IMG/VR virus record: IMGVR_UViG_3300031673_000015
Span: 1-64,000 of that record
From: a virus
Length of the DNA stretch: 64,000 bases
Direction: 5' to 3' (one strand)
Of the stretch, positions 48,402-63,121 are shown in pieces. Position numbers and translations under genes: made by a program. How positions within the stretch are numbered: the stretch's first letter is position 1; every line of letters starts with the position of its first letter. The notes under the pieces were generated by a model. That model searched no databases. It had not been told where the DNA came from and saw nothing but the letters and a program-made list of their open reading frames with translations.

Positions 48402-49559
48402 TTATACCCTCTCCAGTATTTCTGTAGCCAGATCAAATATACGGTTATAGAAATATTGGGTAGGGACCTTTCTTCCAAATGATTTTTCCAGGGATAGTTC
48501 ATTGCTATCTTCTGGTGAAATTACTCCCATTTCTTCACCATATTCGCTCTCTTTATAGATAGCCAAGTTGTAAATATTAAGAGCATACAATTTACTCTTT
48601 GATTCATTGATAAAATCAAGAGTATGGATATAGGTGACTATATCCTCTTCTACAATTCCAATTATCACATTCAGGATAACCTTCAGTCCTTGGTTATGAA
48701 GCTTGATCACGGCCGTACGTATCAGCTTCTCACTTGCCGGTTTATGCAGGGCTTTCAGGATCCTATCATTAAACGATTCTACTCCCATCTCTACTATCCT
48801 TACTCCCAGGTCCTGTAGCTCTTCTATGAATCCAGGCTTGTTAAGCTGGGCTGCTGTAGTCTGAATGATGAACCCTTCAAACTCCGGGTTGTTAGTCCGG
48901 ACTATATCATACGCTTCCTTCAATATATTATAGTTGGGAGCCTGTCCAAAGGTAGAATCAGCAACATATACATACTGAAATCTCAGTGACGTAGAAATAC
49001 GTGTTGCCTGGTATAATATTTCCTCCCTGGTCTTCTCCTGGATCCAGTGCTGAGTAGTACAGAACTTACACTTATGCTTGCACCCTGTAGATAGAGTGAT
49101 ACGCGGGATAGTGGTTGTATTCTCAAAATGTCTGTAGTTAAGCGCATATTTATAAGGTACACCCAGATACTCTGCCAAGGCTTCAGGATTATCGAAATAT
49201 TTCAAGCCTGGTATTTGAATATATCCCCCAGTCAGGATCTTGGCTTTACCTGTGTATTCCCGGACAAACTTTTCGATAAATGATTTGTTCACATCCATTA
49301 CAGAGAATAGGATATAGTCATAATGATTAATGTTTGTAATTGGCTCGCTATTTTCCAGGACCAGGAAATCAGTATTTATATAACCATCCAGAAAGCCATC
49401 GATTTCAGCTATCCATAATGGAATCTCCCAAAAATGCGTTCCCTTCTGGTAGCCTTTTTTAAGCCTGTAAATATCCTCATAATACCTGCTGGCCTTTGTG
49501 TCCTGGTAGGGACCATTGATCAGCTTTGAGCTTACTTGTATGTATAGTAACTTCTTCAT
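48402..49559 (-). CDS. Radical SAM enzyme with B12-binding-like N-terminus, 385 aa
   Basis: The motif 'LSTGCKHKCKFCTTQHWIQ' (CxxxCxxC) near residue 150 binds the 4Fe-4S cluster that cleaves SAM. 'GVRIVEMGVESFNDRILKALHKP' and 'LKVILNVIIGI' are the typical radical SAM barrel strands (GxES, GxPG-like). Residues 40-130 ('YDYILFSVMDVN...KILTGGY') look like the Rossmann-type B12-binding domain found in methylthiotransferase and P-methylase relatives. The substrate is unknown. The nearby RNA genes make tRNA or tmRNA modification thinkable, but nothing proves it. Confidence 0.75.
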   Translation of the reverse strand: MKKLLYIQVSSKLINGPYQDTKASRYYEDIYRLKKGYQKGTHFWEIPLWIAEIDGFLDGYINTDFLVLENSEPITNINHYDYILFSVMDVNKSFIEKFVREYTGKAKILTGGYIQIPGLKYFDNPEALAEYLGVPYKYALNYRHFENTTTIPRITLSTGCKHKCKFCTTQHWIQEKTREEILYQATRISTSLRFQYVYVADSTFGQAPNYNILKEAYDIVRTNNPEFEGFIIQTTAAQLNKPGFIEELQDLGVRIVEMGVESFNDRILKALHKPASEKLIRTAVIKLHNQGLKVILNVIIGIVEEDIVTYIHTLDFINESKSKLYALNIYNLAIYKESEYGEEMGVISPEDSNELSLEKSFGRKVPTQYFYNRIFDLATEILERV

Positions 49560-49861
49560 TCAGTTTCATATAAATGTTCAGCTATCTCTGGATGTACTTT
49601 TTTGAAGTATACGGAAATGAAGTCAGGATTGATATGATTAATCCCTTCTGATTCTAACCGGCGGACAGCATTTTGAAATTGTCTATCTATGCGTATACAA
49701 ACAGTTATTAAATCCTTGTCACTTTTGTTCAATTTATCAAGTACTTGGACTTTGATATGATGTGTGATTGCCTTGTGTAATTCTTGACTAATTTGAACAT
49801 CATCTTCAATACAGGTTGAAGGCTTTTTACAAATCATATAGAATTCATCGTCTAGAAACAT
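49556..49861 (-). CDS. Unknown protein, 101 aa
   Basis: ATG 49861 is chosen; an in-frame extension to 49936 would run through the tRNA-like element. The protein is helical and charged, with no motif ('ISQELHKAITHHIKVQVLDKLNKSDKDL'). Its stop overlaps the start of the radical SAM gene by 4 bp, so it may be a partner of that enzyme. Confidence 0.5.
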   Translation of the reverse strand: MFLDDEFYMICKKPSTCIEDDVQISQELHKAITHHIKVQVLDKLNKSDKDLITVCIRIDRQFQNAVRRLESEGINHINPDFISVYFKKVHPEIAEHLYETE

Positions 49862-49884
49862 AATATTGATTTTAATATTAAATT

Positions 49885-49929
49885 TGTACCCCACCAGGAT
49901 TCGAACCTGGTTAGTACCATACGGGGCTA
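49885..49929 (-). ncRNA. tRNA-like minihelix 1, overlapping a stop codon
   Basis: Read on the minus strand: stop codon UAG of the 98-aa gene; then GCCCC (the G is the third stop base); connector GUAUGGUACUAA; T-arm CCAGG-UUCGAAU-CCUGG; U; GGGGU; then ACA. Stem GCCCC/GGGGU stacks on the T-arm. No D-arm, no anticodon arm and no complementary 5' acceptor strand occur within 100 nt. It lies 23 bases before the next start codon. Confidence 0.7.
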
Positions 49930-50223
49930 GAAGCAAACACTTACATATGTGGATTTGTCTGTTAAGCTTACTATCATAAGTAAGTCATCCACTTCATCAG
50001 GAGCTATACAATCCAGCGTTATTAAATACCTACCAACAGGAGTAAAGATAGTAACAGATTCAAATGGATCAAGATAATCTGTGAATACAATGATATTTGT
50101 TGATGTCTCTTCTACAGTCACAATACCAGGACAGGCACCATTGGTAACCGTAATGTACGGCGGATGCATAATCTCACATGATGTGAGCAGAGCAATTGCA
50201 AGCAGCAAGAATAGAGTTTTCAT
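49927..50223 (-). CDS. Lipoprotein, 98 aa
   Basis: Signal peptide with clear lipobox 'LLLAIALLTSCEI' (Cys16). The mature part is beta-rich with two further Cys and Val/Thr-rich strands. A phage lipoprotein in an accessory block may serve superinfection exclusion, as in other phages, but this is inferred. The stop codon is embedded in tRNA-like minihelix 1. It overlaps the upstream gene by 4 bp. Confidence 0.6.
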   Translation of the reverse strand: MKTLFLLLAIALLTSCEIMHPPYITVTNGACPGIVTVEETSTNIIVFTDYLDPFESVTIFTPVGRYLITLDCIAPDEVDDLLMIVSLTDKSTYVSVCF

Positions 50224-50735
50224 AACGTAGCTTTTTCGTAAACAGTCTCACCATTGGAAAATGTAGCTACAACTCTCAAGGGTATGGAATAATCCTTGTA
50301 GATCTTCTCCAGCTTAGTAATAAGCTCTTCAGTGACCTGGTTAACCCAGTTAATGGCCCTGGTGGCCTGCTGGTTATTCAAACCTTCATAATTTAGATCA
50401 TCCTGGTCCAGGCTGTATACCCAGTCGGATCCTCCTGTAGAGTATTGCAGAGCCCAATCCAGGTTGCAGCCAGCATAATATCCGCTACGTATGATAGCAG
50501 ATACTCTAACTTCGATACAGATACCTCCCCAGTATCCATTGGTATTCAGACTCCCAAGGACATGTGAAGGAAAGGATCTCAGCTCATGCCGGTCATGTCC
50601 TCCATCCTGGTATTCATCCAGCTGAGAGAGCTCGGACTCCAGGTTGTCTTTCAGATCCTGGTAGTCATAATCGTTCTCCAGCTCACACGCGAACACGCGG
50701 CTAGCGTTAACATTATGAAAATTACTTGTACTCAT
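50220..50735 (-). CDS. Unknown protein, 171 aa
   Basis: The start at ATG 50735 has a good Shine-Dalgarno site (TAGGAGG). It is acidic at the N-terminus, with a central beta part ('YWGGICIEVRVSAIIRSGYYAGCNLDWALQY') and a helical C-terminus ('ATRAINWVNQVTEELITKLEKIYKDY'). Phage accessory proteins with this 'GYYAGCNLD' region exist in other Bacteroidota phages by impression only. No function can be assigned. Confidence 0.5.
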   Translation of the reverse strand: MSTSNFHNVNASRVFACELENDYDYQDLKDNLESELSQLDEYQDGGHDRHELRSFPSHVLGSLNTNGYWGGICIEVRVSAIIRSGYYAGCNLDWALQYSTGGSDWVYSLDQDDLNYEGLNNQQATRAINWVNQVTEELITKLEKIYKDYSIPLRVVATFSNGETVYEKATL

Positions 50736-50763
50736 AATTACCTCCTATTTTTGATTAAACATT

Positions 50764-50810
50764 TGTACCCTGCCTGGAGTCGAACCAGGCCAAATACTAT
50801 ATCAGGGTTA
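50764..50810 (-). ncRNA. tRNA-like minihelix 2, overlapping a stop codon
   Basis: Minus strand: UAA stop of the 82-aa gene; ACCCUG (first A is the third stop base); connector AUAUAGUAUUUGG; T-arm CCUGG-UUCGACU-CCAGG; CAGGGU; then ACA. ACCCUG/CAGGGU gives six pairs. The 171-aa gene starts 28 bases later behind its Shine-Dalgarno site. Confidence 0.7.
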
Positions 50811-51056
50811 AGAAAATATTGACTGGTCCCCGGCCAGTGCTCTCTTCATTAAATTAGACTTAGGCAGAACTTGCGTCCGGATCAAGAATTTCACGGTGTC
50901 CTTCTTCAAGCAATATTCCTTATGTTTACCTGGTTGCACTTCATAAAACCGGATCTGGTTACCGGACCGGCGGATTTCCAGATGTAACCCGGTATATACA
51001 CCTGCCCGGATCTGCTGCCCGGCTTGGTCTTTGAATTGTACTACAATTGCGCTCAT
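50808..51056 (-). CDS. Small basic protein, 82 aa
   Basis: Beta-rich N-terminus ('MSAIVVQFKDQAGQQIRAGVYTGLHLEIRRSGNQIRFYEVQPG') followed by a basic segment. No motif is recognised. The start overlaps the stop of the 125-aa gene by 4 bp. The stop lies in tRNA-like minihelix 2. Confidence 0.5.
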   Translation of the reverse strand: MSAIVVQFKDQAGQQIRAGVYTGLHLEIRRSGNQIRFYEVQPGKHKEYCLKKDTVKFLIRTQVLPKSNLMKRALAGDQSIFS

Positions 51057-51430
51057 ACCTTACAGTTAATAAGAGTATCACTATCAATATGATAGATAAA
51101 ATCCTGCTTCAAAGTTTCACCAAGGAAGATAGCGGAAGATTTGTCCGTATGTGATACTGAACATATATCCAGGTAAGTTTTACCCTCATGGATCCAGACT
51201 CCCAGGAAGAATCCACTTTGTAACCAGCACTTGTTGTCCTTGGCATACTCGGCAATAGCAATACTCAAGGTCTCCCAGTCGGTTGTATTCAGAACCCTAT
51301 CATTTGCTATCCCTCCGATAACATAACCAGAGATGGGAGCCCGGCCAAGGTTATCTACAGTGCATCCTCCCGTATTCAGGGCTATTCTAGCGATCCGCTT
51401 GCTAAAAATTGATTTGAATTTGTTCTTCAT
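51053..51430 (-). CDS. Unknown protein, 125 aa
   Basis: Gly/Asn-rich central part ('NTGGCTVDNLGRAPISGYVIGGIANDR') and a beta-rich C-terminal half ('WLQSGFFLGVWIHEGKTYLDICSVSHTD'). There is no membrane segment or catalytic motif. It overlaps the 82-aa gene and forms a two-gene unit with it. Confidence 0.5.
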   Translation of the reverse strand: MKNKFKSIFSKRIARIALNTGGCTVDNLGRAPISGYVIGGIANDRVLNTTDWETLSIAIAEYAKDNKCWLQSGFFLGVWIHEGKTYLDICSVSHTDKSSAIFLGETLKQDFIYHIDSDTLINCKV

Positions 51431-51458
51431 GACTTCATAAATTAGATTAATACTGGTA

Positions 51459-51632
51459 CTATCCCCATCCTTGCCCCCAAAGACATACAGCTATAACCGC
51501 AAAACATAAGACAGTGATTATTAGTACTTTGACTGCTATTTCAATCCTGGCTTCCCGCTTGCGTTCGGCCTCCGATTTTTCCCTGGTAACTGCCGGGGTT
51601 GGACGGAATGTGAAAACGTTACTGTGACTCAT
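51459..51632 (-). CDS. Single-pass membrane protein, 57 aa
   Basis: The N-terminal half is polar and basic ('TREKSEAERKREARIE'), followed by one membrane segment (about 33-52, 'AVKVLIITVLCFAVIAVCLW'). A cytoplasmic N-terminus and short outer tail are expected. It lies between tRNA-like minihelix 3 and the 125-aa gene. Holin-like size, but not near the endolysin; the role is unknown. Confidence 0.5.
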   Translation of the reverse strand: MSHSNVFTFRPTPAVTREKSEAERKREARIEIAVKVLIITVLCFAVIAVCLWGQGWG

Positions 51633-51666
51633 AACTTTAAAATATTAGTGAATACTAGAAATAAAT

Positions 51667-51715
51667 TCGTGCCTGGTCCAGGATTTGAACCCGGACCGGA
51701 TACCATTTCAGGCTA
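51667..51715 (-). ncRNA. tRNA-like minihelix 3, overlapping a stop codon
   Basis: Minus strand: UAG stop of the 107-aa gene; GCCUG (G is the third stop base); connector with AAAUGGUAUCC; T-arm core CCGGG-UUCAAAU-CCUGG, extended outward by GGU/ACC pairs; then CAGGC followed by ACGA. GCCUG/CAGGC is a perfect 5-bp stem. The next gene starts 35 bases downstream. Confidence 0.7.
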
Positions 51716-52036
51716 GTCAAGGATTGCGCTATACATTGACTGGTTGATCTTAAGCAATAAATACCTGGCCCGGTCAAATGTCTGGATCGCGCTGCCCCGC
51801 GATACGTTATACTTTGCTAGGATTGTTGGGTGGAATTCATTGTAGCTAAGATCTTGGACAAAATCAACTATTGATTTCTCCAATGGATTTGCATCAAGTG
51901 ATTCACCTGTAAAGGGATTTCTGACCTGGCTAGTATCTCCGGACTTTTCAATGGCCTGGATCTGGCTGGCTAGGTACGCAGCGATAAATTTATCATCGGC
52001 TGCTGTGATCTTTTCACCGTTACAATACTTTTCCAT
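51713..52036 (-). CDS. Unknown protein, 107 aa
   Basis: A helical protein with 'DKFIAAYLASQIQAIEKSGDTSQV' and a C-terminal 'NVSRGSAIQTFDRARYLLLKINQSMY' segment, which may form a small helix-turn-helix. Its stop codon is embedded in tRNA-like minihelix 3. It follows tRNA-like minihelix 4 by 31 bases. No family is recognised. Confidence 0.5.
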   Translation of the reverse strand: MEKYCNGEKITAADDKFIAAYLASQIQAIEKSGDTSQVRNPFTGESLDANPLEKSIVDFVQDLSYNEFHPTILAKYNVSRGSAIQTFDRARYLLLKINQSMYSAILD

Positions 52037-52067
52037 AATTGTAAATTTAAAATTAATACTAAAACTT

Positions 52068-52114
52068 TGTACCCGGGTAAGGATTCGAACCTTACCTGTA
52101 TACCATACGAGTTA
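52068..52114 (-). ncRNA. tRNA-like minihelix 4, overlapping a stop codon
   Basis: Minus strand: UAA stop of the 72-aa gene; ACUCG (A is the third stop base); connector UAUGGUAUACA; T-arm GGUAAGG-UUCGAAU-CCUUACC (7 bp); CGGGU; then ACA. ACUCG/CGGGU has one U-G pair. The connector motif UAUGGUAU is shared with the other elements. Confidence 0.7.
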
Positions 52115-52330
52115 TCCAGTATAATTTGCGGCCCAATTATCAAAGGCTGATATTATATCCCGGATTTGATTTGCTTCATATGAATAGTCAGATAGGTCAA
52201 TAAATTTATCCTCCAATTGTCTGACTTCCTTTTGTCCAAAATTTTCATATAATCCATGCTTACTGCATTTATCAATAAGTTTGGCCGTAGCTGCATTAAT
52301 AGCCTTTTGTACTTTAATTAACTTTTCCAT
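52112..52330 (-). CDS. Unknown protein, 72 aa
   Basis: Start at ATG 52330; an upstream in-frame ATG at 52342 would add four residues. The protein is helical and charged ('KLIKVQKAINAATAKLIDKCSKHGLYENFG', 'VRQLEDKFIDLSDYSYEANQIRD'). Its stop lies in minihelix 4, and minihelix 5 lies just upstream. No family is recognised. Confidence 0.45.
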   Translation of the reverse strand: MEKLIKVQKAINAATAKLIDKCSKHGLYENFGQKEVRQLEDKFIDLSDYSYEANQIRDIISAFDNWAANYTG

Positions 52331-52352
52331 TGTATAAAGCATTAGTTAAAAG

Positions 52353-52401
52353 TCGCACCCTGTCCCGGTAACGATCCAGGACTAACACCAATGCAGGGTT
52401 A
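52353..52401 (-). ncRNA. tRNA-like minihelix 5, overlapping a stop codon
   Basis: Minus strand: UAA stop of the 77-aa gene; ACCCUG (A is the third stop base); connector CAUUGGUGUUAG; T-arm UCCUGG-AUCGUUA-CCGGGA; CAGGGU; then GCGA. The T-loop departs from UUCGAAU but keeps UCG, and one stem pair is U-G. The stem ACCCUG/CAGGGU is the same as in element 2. Confidence 0.65.
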
Positions 52402-52634
52402 TTTCAAAGGTTTGAACGTATCGGAGAACAGTATACAACCTCCATTGGCTTCAGCCTGTCCAATTAGATTAAAACCCAGCTGCTGCAATGTAATAACGGC
52501 CTGTCCCCAATAGTCATTATCTTCAATATTGACTATAATGTGCTGCCTAAATCTTAGCGAATTAATTGATATCCTGGATGGTTTGGTATCGGTAGGTCTA
52601 ATAAACCGGATCTGAAATGCATGGTAATTTTTCA
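52399..52634 (-). CDS. Small protein, 77 aa
   Basis: Start at ATG 52634, 5 bases past the previous stop. The longer frame to 52743 overlaps the upstream gene and is less likely. The protein has a beta-alpha-beta look ('HAFQIRFIRPTDTKPSRISINSLRFRQHIIVNIEDNDYWGQAVITLQQLGF'), similar to small phage hypotheticals. The stop lies in minihelix 5. Confidence 0.45.
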
Positions 52635-52639
52635 TGGTT

Positions 52640-52810
52640 TTAAATATTAAGTAAATACTCAGAATTAATGGCATACTTTGCGGTGTGTATTCTTTTCGGA
52701 AATGGATATATATCCAGGAGCTCCTCCAATCTGTGAACCTCATGTATTATACTGGTTAATGTCTCAAATGTACAAATCTGTTTTTGATTAGTGTTAGAAG
52801 GGGCACTCAT
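52640..52810 (-). CDS. Small protein, 56 aa
   Basis: Start at ATG 52810, overlapping the end of the 243-aa gene by 17 bp in another frame. A helical peptide ('FETLTSIIHEVHRLEELLDIYPFPKRIHTAKYAINSEYLL'). No motif is recognised; support comes from tight packing with its neighbours. Confidence 0.4.
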   Translation of the reverse strand: MSAPSNTNQKQICTFETLTSIIHEVHRLEELLDIYPFPKRIHTAKYAINSEYLLNI

Positions 52811-53525
52811 CGTTATTATTTTTAGTGAATACTGAAGTATTGGAACCGTAGATAACTTTAGAGTATACATACCTATCCAGGTTAGCTGAAGGCTTCACTA
52901 CAATAGTATCTAACGTGTCCCTGAATTGAATCCAGGTTATGGCTTGCACTTCGTGTGCTCGCAGGCCTACTTTCTTACCAGCTATAACATAAGCGCTAGA
53001 AAGATCCCTGTAACGCTTCTCAGTCATCCATATCTCAGGTATCTCTTTAACTGCAAGATTAACCCTGAATGAATGCCGGTCAATAGTAACCGGGCCCTGC
53101 TTCTCAGGATGAAAGATATTGGTAAAGAATGCTGAAGTCTTATTAACTTCTTTATAACAACCTATCAACAGTCGAAGAATCTGTTTTTCTGATAGCTTGT
53201 TATCCAGGATCTTTAATGCTTTAAATTTATTCTTGTTGTAGGTAGTTACAACCATTTGCTGGAAGCTATATCCAGCCTTGTGACCTCTGATAAGGTTAAT
53301 TGAATCAATGATATTCTGTATCCAATTTGTCCCTGGGCTAAGCGCCGCAATTACTCCACATACGGTATGTACGGGCAGGTTATGCTGATCGGCTATATAA
53401 ATGGCTATTTCTTTAGCCCTGGTATACCAGGACAGACCCTCCAGACGCTGCTTCTCACTTGAATTGTGATACGCGGCCAGGATATTTGTAACCTGGGTGT
53501 TGATAGAAGGTAGGCTTTTTTTCAT
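52794..53525 (-). CDS. Conserved-type phage protein, 243 aa
   Basis: A helical protein with a central 'HTVCGVIAALSPGTNWIQNIIDSINLI' segment that resembles helix-hairpin-helix-like phage and mobile-element hypotheticals (small families described only as DUFs). 'KQGPVTIDRHSFRVNLAVKEIP' follows. A DNA-interacting role is possible: HhH-type 'LSPGTxW' and 'TIDRH' blocks recall DNA glycosylase-like folds, but no catalytic Asp/Lys can be fixed. It ends with an overlap into the 56-aa gene. Confidence 0.5.
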   Translation of the reverse strand: MKKSLPSINTQVTNILAAYHNSSEKQRLEGLSWYTRAKEIAIYIADQHNLPVHTVCGVIAALSPGTNWIQNIIDSINLIRGHKAGYSFQQMVVTTYNKNKFKALKILDNKLSEKQILRLLIGCYKEVNKTSAFFTNIFHPEKQGPVTIDRHSFRVNLAVKEIPEIWMTEKRYRDLSSAYVIAGKKVGLRAHEVQAITWIQFRDTLDTIVVKPSANLDRYVYSKVIYGSNTSVFTKNNNDECPF

Positions 53526-53852: not shown

Positions 53853-53875
53853 TTGATTGTAAGTTAGTTAAACAT

Positions 53876-53936
53876 TGTGCCAGTAATGAGATTTGAACTC
53901 ATGGCCATTATTATTTTTGGCTTCCAGTTAACTGGC
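53876..53936 (-). ncRNA. tRNA-like element 6 (no D-arm), 61 nt
   Basis: Minus strand: GCCAGU pairs with ACUGGC at the ends. The T-arm is AUGAG-UUCAAAU-CUCAU. In the middle is one hairpin GCCA/UGGC with a 10-nt A/U-rich loop, in the place of the anticodon arm. A D-arm is missing. The first bases also form the palindrome CCAGTTAACTGG. It differs from the minihelices by this extra hairpin and by not starting at a known gene's stop. Confidence 0.5.
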
Positions 53937-53945
53937 AAAAAGAAG

Positions 53946-62246: not shown

Positions 62247-62337
62247 GGCAGAAGGGGGGATTCGAACCCCCGGGTAGTAATTACTACTCCAGATCCAGTA
62301 GGAAAAGCCAGAAACCTACTGGCTATTTTACTTCCGC
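62247..62337 (-). tRNA. tRNA-like gene with class II arm, isotype unresolved, 91 nt
   Basis: Minus strand: acceptor GCGGAAG/CUUCUGC (one G-U), T-arm GGGGG-UUCGAAU-CCCCC, D-arm AGCCAG/CUGGCU with GG in the loop, and a variable-type hairpin GUAGU-AAUU-ACUAC. The anticodon arm does not fold normally: CUACU/AGUAG leaves an 8-nt loop and uses bases of the variable hairpin. A strong alternative hairpin CCAGUAGG/CCUACUGG exists. Discriminator C; CCA is not encoded. Confidence 0.55.
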
Positions 62338-62350
62338 CTACCATAATATC

Positions 62351-62370
62351 GTCCCCGCCGAAGCGGGGGC
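62351..62370 (-). terminator. GC-rich UUCG hairpin at the end of the tmRNA coding piece
   Basis: CCCCGC-UUCG-GCGGGG (minus strand) starts 5-6 bases after the tag stop codon. It has no U tract, so it may be a 3'-end cap or processing signal rather than a full terminator, since tRNA-like genes follow. Confidence 0.5.
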
Positions 62371-62374
62371 CTGA

Positions 62375-62425
62375 CTATGCAGCTACCTTGTGGCTCCATA
62401 CAGGACTTAATTGAACAACTTTGCC
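62375..62425 (-). other. tmRNA tag reading frame, GKVVQLSPVWSHKVAA*
   Basis: The resume region CUGGCAAA matches the Bacteroides-type CUGGCGAA, with resume codon GGC. The frame runs 16 codons to UAG and encodes GKVVQLSPVWSHKVAA. The last residues VAA are of the hydrophobic-Ala-Ala type seen by ClpXP-like proteases. The tag is longer than the usual host tag (GETNYALAA in Bacteroides, from memory). Confidence 0.8.
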
Positions 62426-62487
62426 AGTTATTCCTCAGTGATTTCAATTCGTGTTGTACTCTGCATGCTGTCAAAACATTCAGCCCC

Positions 62488-62734
62488 GTAAGATACGATC
62501 TGGGGGTACGCCCAGGAGAAGCCTACCACGTATGGTAACCCGGCTCCCAGGACCCCAGATCGCGAGTTCTTACAAGAGGGGAGGAAAATTCTAGTCTAAG
62601 CACCTATCATTTACGCTCCTCAACGTATGATTTATGGTACTACTAGAATCATCCCTCAAGACCATTGCCGTAAAACACCCCTTGGTCGCAAAAGCGTCCG
62701 CAGGGCTTGCGGTTGGATTTTTTATCATAAGTAG
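62488..62734 (-). other. Intervening segment of the permuted tmRNA, highly structured
   Basis: It contains 247 nt between the mature 3' and 5' ends. Three structured parts are seen on the minus strand. The first is a branched domain (62713-62650) with CCGCA/UGCGG, CGC/GCG and GACCA/UGGUC closed by AUCC/GGAU. The second is a long hairpin closed by AUUCUAGU/ACUAGAAU (about 62650-62588). The third is a hairpin closed by CGAUCUGGGG/CCCCAGAUCG (about 62560-62493) with an inner UACCA-UACG-UGGUA. It should be removed by RNase P and a 3' endonuclease. Confidence 0.65.
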
Positions 62735-62957
62735 TGGAGCTGCGGGGCTTCGAACCCCGGTCCAAACATGCTTTCCTTCACGAATATAACGAAATCAAAG
62801 AACGTATTTGTTAGAAATATATACTAAATATCTAACAAAAATAAAATTGGTCGCGTAGTTTATCTGTTCCCATCTTGTCTTATAAGAACGTCTTCTATGC
62901 AAGAGCAGACCGGCTATACTGATTACTCATACCCTAGCCTAATGATATGCACCTTTG

Positions 62958-63041
62958 ATGCAATGAAAGGATTCGAACCTTTGACCTGAAGCACGTTCTA
63001 TGCCGCGCGGCAACCGCTCTATCCAACTGAGCTACATTGCA
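62958..63041 (-). tRNA. tRNA-like gene with enlarged anticodon region, 84 nt
   Basis: Minus strand: acceptor UGCAAUG/CAUUGCA (perfect), U8-A9, D-arm GCUC-AGUUGGAUA-GAGC, T-arm AAAGG-UUCGAAU-CCUUU, discriminator U. Between D-arm and T-arm there are 33 nt where a class I tRNA has 23. The stretch contains UGCC-GCGC-GGCA and cannot be folded into a normal anticodon arm, so no anticodon is named. It may be a tRNA with a 10-nt insert, a degenerate gene or a tRNA-like RNA. Confidence 0.6.
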
Positions 63042-63048
63042 TACCTTG

Positions 63049-63121
63049 TAGCGGGGACAGGAGTCGAACCTGCAGTCGAAAGCTTATGAAGCTCTTGAGT
63101 TACCATTACTTCCACCCCGCA
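63049..63121 (-). tRNA. tRNA-Met (CAU), initiator-like
   Basis: Minus strand: acceptor U-GCGGGG / CCCCGC-U with a U1-U72 mismatch, as expected for initiator tRNAs (unpaired 1:72); anticodon arm AGAGC-UUCAUAA-GCUUU (anticodon CAU); T-arm GCAGG-UUCGACU-CCUGU; discriminator A73. The D-stem is weak (two good pairs), and the three G-C pairs of a classic initiator anticodon stem are missing. CAU could also be a lysidine-modified tRNA-Ile. CCA is not encoded. Confidence 0.75.

Follow-up and report, generated by a model that had tools for sequence, protein, structure and literature searches.

In animal mitochondrial messenger RNAs (mRNAs), real transfer RNAs (tRNAs) lie between the genes, and cutting leaves U or UA of the stop codon. 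The early mRNAs of T7-type phages are processed by RNase III at a long hairpin, and the tRNA-like domain of transfer-messenger RNA (tmRNA) combines an acceptor and a T-arm with a stemless D-loop, alongside a tag open reading frame (ORF) and a long connector. The pAT substrates of McClain are reportedly artificial rods of acceptor and T-arm in which a bulge replaces the other arms and which end in a 3' RCCA. By analogy, the nearest precedent for the element described here is the t-elements of plant mitochondria, tRNA-like structures at mRNA ends, where cuts by RNase P and RNase Z define the transcript ends, and which are CCA-tailed and not aminoacylated (PMC11658184). The element itself, an acceptor stem closed together with a T-arm and hereafter called a minihelix, occurs five times in the window, i.e., the 64,000 nucleotides (positions 1 to 64,000) analyzed from the 79.7 kb viral record IMGVR_UViG_3300031673_000015 of IMG/VR.

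The five minihelices punctuate a leftward array of small genes, mostly orphan ORFs, on the minus strand (49556..53525). An initial annotation had placed them at gene ends, with the third base of each stop codon opening the acceptor stem, and all five stand where it put them, on the minus strand, at the ORF ends 49927, 50808, 51713, 52112 and 52399. Minihelix 1 (49888..49927) begins at the third base of the UAG of ORF 49927-50223 and reads GCCCC, the loop GTATGGTACTA, ACCAGG TTCGAAT CCTGGT GGGGT, then A73 C74 AAA. Minihelix 2 (50767..50808), on the UAA of ORF 50808-51056, reads ACCCT, the loop GATATAGTATTTG, GCCTGG TTCGACT CCAGGC AGGGT, then A73 C74 AAA; minihelix 3 (51671..51713), on the UAG of ORF 51713-52036, reads GCCTG, the loop AAATGGTATCCG, GTCCGGG TTCAAAT CCTGGAC CAGGC, then A73 C74 GAA. 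On the UAA of ORF 52112-52342 (start at 52330 or 52342) lies minihelix 4 (52071..52112), with ACTCG, the loop TATGGTATACA, GGTAAGG TTCGAAT CCTTACC CGGGT, then A73 C74 AAA. Minihelix 5 (52357..52399), on the UAA of ORF 52399-52626, has a variant T-loop and reads ACCCT, the loop GCATTGGTGTTA, GTCCTGG ATCGTTA CCGGGAC AGGGT, then G73 C74 GAC. In all five, the 5' acceptor strand opens with the third base of the stop; the pair formed there is G-U in copy 1, G-C in copy 3 and A-U in copies 2, 4 and 5, which agrees with the earlier reading of C or U opposite UAG and U opposite UAA. Five acceptor pairs stack on six T-stem pairs in copies 1 and 2 (11 in total) and on seven in copies 3, 4 and 5 (12). No minihelix separates the two genes of either overlapping pair (50223/50220 and 51056/51053), so that a minihelix marks a gene group.

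Folded singly, the window copies are only mildly more stable than shuffled sequences (z from -0.9 to -2.6), which is not decisive, and the case for the minihelices therefore rests on comparison. Many further copies were found in IMG/VR with a loop/T-arm pattern that made no demand on the acceptor. A controlled structural descriptor, devised because an early pattern scan had returned ordinary tRNAs along with minihelices, gave 163 matches (tRNAs included) in 2.09 Mb versus 3 in reversed sequence. The pairing itself was assessed in a non-circular way at 241 sites chosen by their loop sequence only: 131 have an acceptor of at least five pairs, none has exactly four, and the distribution is two-humped, the remaining sites being mainly ordinary tRNAs. 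With the upstream flanks shuffled, only about 10 of the 241 would be expected to reach five pairs. The covariation proposed earlier, as opposed to duplication, is supported. In two alignments (one of them A3), 11 of 12 pairs each changed on both sides, among sequences whose entry had required pairing. A covariance model built from 24 copies of other phages and containing no window sequence (R1) recovers four of the five window copies, namely minihelices 1 (E = 2e-7), 4 (5e-6), 2 (4e-5) and 3 (0.04), E-values that are rough given the short calibration. The joint closure of acceptor and T-arm is borne out. A second model (R2), made without mycobacteriophage copies, still recovers about 35 of them across four mycobacteriophages, without exception on the strand of the genes.

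Altogether, the family comprises 228 distinct copies at about 150 viral loci, with up to 10 minihelices per phage in one array; unrelated phages share an arrangement in which each gene or gene group has one minihelix, encoded on its own strand. Copies at stop codons, which the initial annotation had required of related phages, do exist there and in unrelated phages as well. Neither Rfam, even at a relaxed threshold, nor its tRNA model RF00005 recognizes them: no minihelix reaches the gathering score of the latter, while the real tRNAs of the same loci do. The homology to a whole tRNA gene that characterizes t-elements is accordingly lacking in Rfam searches of the minihelices. The minihelices form a large family of phage RNAs, for which we found no earlier description. 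The hosts include at least Mycobacteriales and probably Bacteroidota; a scan of 118 Bacteroidota genomes matched the seed contig and none of the other 117. Three single minihelices (L353, L386 and L253) lie on contigs of isolate genomes, likely prophages, one of them adjoining a gene start. Searches of E. coli genomes for L339, a tentative prophage copy, found nothing, and a few isolated prophage matches of this kind may be other things.

Among cultured phages, Mycobacterium phages Cuke and Indlulamithi carry 11 minihelices each; for Fowlmouth and MrMiyagi, the descriptor used gives 8 each. They lie in an orphan-gene region past the lysis genes. Between orthologous copies, whose flanks are 77-97% identical, the changes are compensated, for instance TGATGG/CCATCA in Cuke (32718) versus TAGAGG/CCTCTA in Fowlmouth (36122). 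These data bear on the view that the minihelices are decaying remnants of complete tRNA genes, which the initial annotation had named as one case that would overturn its interpretation. An origin from tRNAs is likely, and the window array is headed by a larger tRNA-like element (53868..53937, minus strand; a possible sixth member, present as a single copy, adjoining a long non-coding stretch) with a 7-bp acceptor, a T arm with TTCAAAT, one extra arm and no D stem, which its predicted fold makes a possible D-armless cloverleaf. However, compensatory changes between orthologous copies of close phages and a constant geometry show maintained function, and arrays of up to 10 per phage fit decay poorly; we consider it extremely improbable, as the covariation contradicts it. 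Relatives of the window phage carry arrays of 8 (L233) and about 9-10 (L234), and the L233 orthologue (51% identity) of the gene before minihelix 5 also ends in a minihelix.

In the family as a whole, an acceptor of 5-7 bp and a T stem of 5-7 bp with a TTCRANT loop are followed by N73-C74-W75-A76. Of 228 copies, 176 have a stacked rod of 12 or 13 bp and 39 have one of 11 bp, so that the 12-bp acceptor/T stack of RNase P substrates is present. Acceptor and T stem are joined by a loop of 9-14 nt, usually 10-11, with a conserved GG, commonly UAUGGUAC or AAUGGUU. The statement that D- and anticodon arms are missing holds for the stems, replaced by this short loop, but the loop is no bare linker: it keeps a D-loop remnant (consensus AUGGUA) with GG intact in four of the five window copies, copy 2 having AUAGUA, with AG for GG. 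A structural scan of the array loci without any sequence filter found 51 copies with a TTCRA loop, every one of which has GG, versus no copy in reversed controls, at loci that had originally been found through such sequences. Together, GG and TTCRA would be what a T-loop/D-loop elbow requires (G18-U55, G19-C56); the elbow nucleotides and the 3' end are those of a tRNA. Like the tRNA-like domain of tmRNA, the minihelix combines acceptor and T-arm with a stemless D-loop, but is closed by a loop of 10-13 nt instead of a connector.

A second type of T-loop, ATCGTYN, occurs with the same GG loop. We had considered minihelix 5 a decayed copy; as its loop type recurs four times in a single array of another phage (L235, minus-strand numbering 5960, 6929, 9926 and 10889), it is a variant and not a product of decay. 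In these loops, positions 54 and 58 look exchanged (T/A to A/T), perhaps a tertiary-pair covariation.

The 3' tail obeys the same rule as that of genuine phage tRNAs. C74 is found in 183 of 228 minihelices against a 17% background, position 75 is mostly A or T with C75 avoided (12/228), and A76 is present in 156; CCA is encoded in only 8 of 228, and the RCCA motif of RNase P substrates is not encoded. Genuine tRNAs of the same loci behave alike: 75 of 78 have C74, and positions 74-76 most often read CAA or CTA, a comparison in which ARAGORN may be slightly biased toward C74. A strong hairpin begins within a few nucleotides of N73 in 50 of 226 copies, compared with 3.5 in shuffled sequences and 7 further downstream, and in 18 of 42 (versus 1.7), mainly in mycobacteriophages, where such a hairpin is nearly the rule. 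These hairpins lie before the next gene start and differ in sequence (L138, L149, L147, L323, L421; L444, L445), their loops being conserved (e.g., AATTAA or AATGAA) and their stems not. Intrinsic terminators were rejected as an explanation: no GC-rich hairpin with an immediate U run was found at any of the five window copies.

The fusion to the stop codon, seen in all five window copies, is frequent but not general in the family. No other single position is as common as UA followed by R as the first helix base (31 of 175 copies; p ~1e-15 versus a uniform spread). In all, the stop reaches into the helix in 52 of 175 and ends 1-23 nt upstream of it in 107, with a second broad mode near -11. Since the stop lies between -25 and +5 in 158 of 175, the minihelices are, like t-elements, tRNA-like structures at mRNA ends; they differ from t-elements in lacking D stem and anticodon arm, in forming arrays, in being often fused to the stop and in being followed by a hairpin. 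With the punctuation of animal mitochondria, they share RNA units between genes and a stop codon at the boundary, yet none of the phage units is a decoding RNA, and their stops are already complete at the DNA level.

A full tRNA punctuation also has to be weighed, in which the minihelix would be excised, as in mitochondria, by an RNase P cut at the first base of the acceptor and an RNase Z cut following N73; at UA-R fusions, an incomplete stop would be left, which 3' adenylation could complete or ribosome rescue could deal with. The 12-bp rod with its internal bulge resembles the minimal RNase P substrates of the pAT type (McClain 1987, cited in PMC12710915). The phage minihelices differ from pAT in being natural, in keeping the GG motif of the D-loop and in avoiding C75. 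Moreover, base -1 is A in 150 of 228 copies, a purine is preferred at +1, and UA at -2/-1 exceeds background even where the stop is elsewhere (24 of 118 versus 11%). However, in 52 of 175 cases the stop would be lost wholly or in part through a cut at +1, which would sometimes fall within the coding region; for each of the five window copies, such a cut would hit the stop codon itself. The lack of an encoded RCCA and the avoidance of C75 speak against it as well. We hold this scenario to be rather unlikely.

A cut at the 5' edge would thus spoil the stop in about 30% of the genes, which argues against routine excision by RNase P and favors a cut at the 3' side, by RNase Z. We therefore propose, with moderate confidence, that 3'-end processing by host tRNA enzymes punctuates the phage mRNA, the minihelix staying behind as a 3' cap. 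Each minihelix would close a gene or overlapping gene group within a polycistronic phage transcript and mimic the top half of a tRNA, as a stacked rod of 11-13 bp with the T-loop docked on the D-loop-like GG and an N73-C74 end. A host tRNA 3'-processing nuclease, most likely RNase Z, would recognize elbow and rod and cut after N73. The upstream mRNA would retain its stop codon and gain a stable tRNA-like cap to which CCA could be added and which would resist 3' exonucleases, and the downstream mRNA would begin at C74, in many phages with a small protective hairpin at its 5' end. Fold, covariation, position, tail rule, downstream hairpin and restriction to phages are read in the sequences themselves. 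From the same material we infer the cutting, the enzyme, the addition of CCA and the effect on stability. Elbow, rod length and tail rule speak for tRNA-processing enzymes as the factors that recognize the minihelix, and the hairpin just past N73 lies where a new 5' end would need protection. Such messages would resemble those of T7 in being polycistronic phage transcripts cut into units with structured ends, although here the signal is a tRNA mimic and neither a long hairpin nor RNase III would be involved.

Several points weigh against this proposal. RNase P also cuts minimal acceptor/T-arm substrates, which makes cutting at the 3' side only uncertain, although C75 of RCCA helps RNase P and its avoidance in the minihelices tempers this objection. 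Of four window copies examined for the downstream hairpin, just one has it. A different tRNA-binding factor could lie behind the C74 rule, whose comparison with tRNAs is also touched by the possible ARAGORN bias. Finally, neither RNase Z nor a CCA-adding enzyme was found encoded in 16 carrier records, so that the model relies on host enzymes.

Alternatively, the element might remain uncut, its T-loop and elbow at the stop binding a tRNA-binding protein or the ribosome and thereby controlling termination, re-initiation or mRNA stability. The modes of stop position at -2 and near -11 do suggest a spatial relation to termination, but a terminating ribosome would unfold the acceptor, and both the C74-W-A tail and the hairpin a few nucleotides past N73 would be left unexplained, which makes this improbable in our eyes. 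Likewise, gene and minihelix could form a cassette, with structured DNA or the conserved loop as a shuffling junction. Several mosaic borders among Cuke, Fowlmouth and MrMiyagi (L444, L448, L449) indeed fall at minihelices (Cuke 30692, 31078 and 36730), the gene upstream being unrelated and the downstream part 75-95% identical, and the arrays consist of orphan genes. Yet strand-specific covariation, the GG/TTCRA tertiary motif and the tRNA-type tail point to RNA, and the only integrases seen are single serine integrases, in some carriers, such that a role as recombination sites seems very unlikely; recombination at minihelices could be a by-product of the proposed processing and not its rival.

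Beyond the array, two genuine phage tRNA genes (62957..63121, minus strand) have the 3' flanks A/CAAGG and T/CAAAG and serve for comparison. An ARAGORN tmRNA call at 62284-62826 (minus strand), over a weak tRNA-Glu, is doubtful and has no Rfam tmRNA match. No viral relatives were found for the protein of 50220-50735, and for the host call, the window DNA polymerase and terminase pointed to distant relatives only. The repeats CR3 and CR4 of cluster M mycobacteriophages carry stem-loops (PMC7953290), and are comparable in being repeated structured intergenic units between small mycobacteriophage genes; they are plain hairpins with start-associated sequence, unlike T-arm minihelices. We rejected the CR3/CR4 repeats of Estes and Aziz as the same element, since the Estes array contains other stem-loops and no minihelix; an R2 search of a cluster M phage gave no copies. 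In Estes (L446, 31-37 kb), unrelated intergenic stem-loops and ACACACGGAGAAGGGA precede small genes, a possible functional analogue.

The initial annotation knew of no described phage element of this kind, and we likewise found no earlier description in Rfam or in the searchable literature, outside of which most subscription journals lie. Signals at mRNA ends that resemble tRNAs are already known; as far as we found, what is new is their presence in phages and their reduction to the top half of a tRNA. Organelles are known to punctuate their mRNAs gene by gene with tRNA mimics; for phages, we found no description of this. It is conceivable, and we suggest it tentatively, that unrelated double-stranded DNA phages use an organelle-style tRNA punctuation, in which host enzymes would divide early messages, one gene at a time, at minimal mimics of tRNA, giving CCA-capped 3' ends and hairpin-protected 5' ends, with the stop codon fused to the processing signal. 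M. smegmatis mc2 155 supports the growth of the four cultured carriers (Cuke, Fowlmouth, MrMiyagi and Indlulamithi), which makes the idea directly testable. The minihelix can serve as a marker when the ends of short phage genes are annotated. If the proposal is true, the minihelices would provide RNase Z, RNase P and the CCA-adding enzyme with minimal substrates of natural origin, and would explain how stable monocistronic messages arise from long arrays of small genes by means of host enzymes only.

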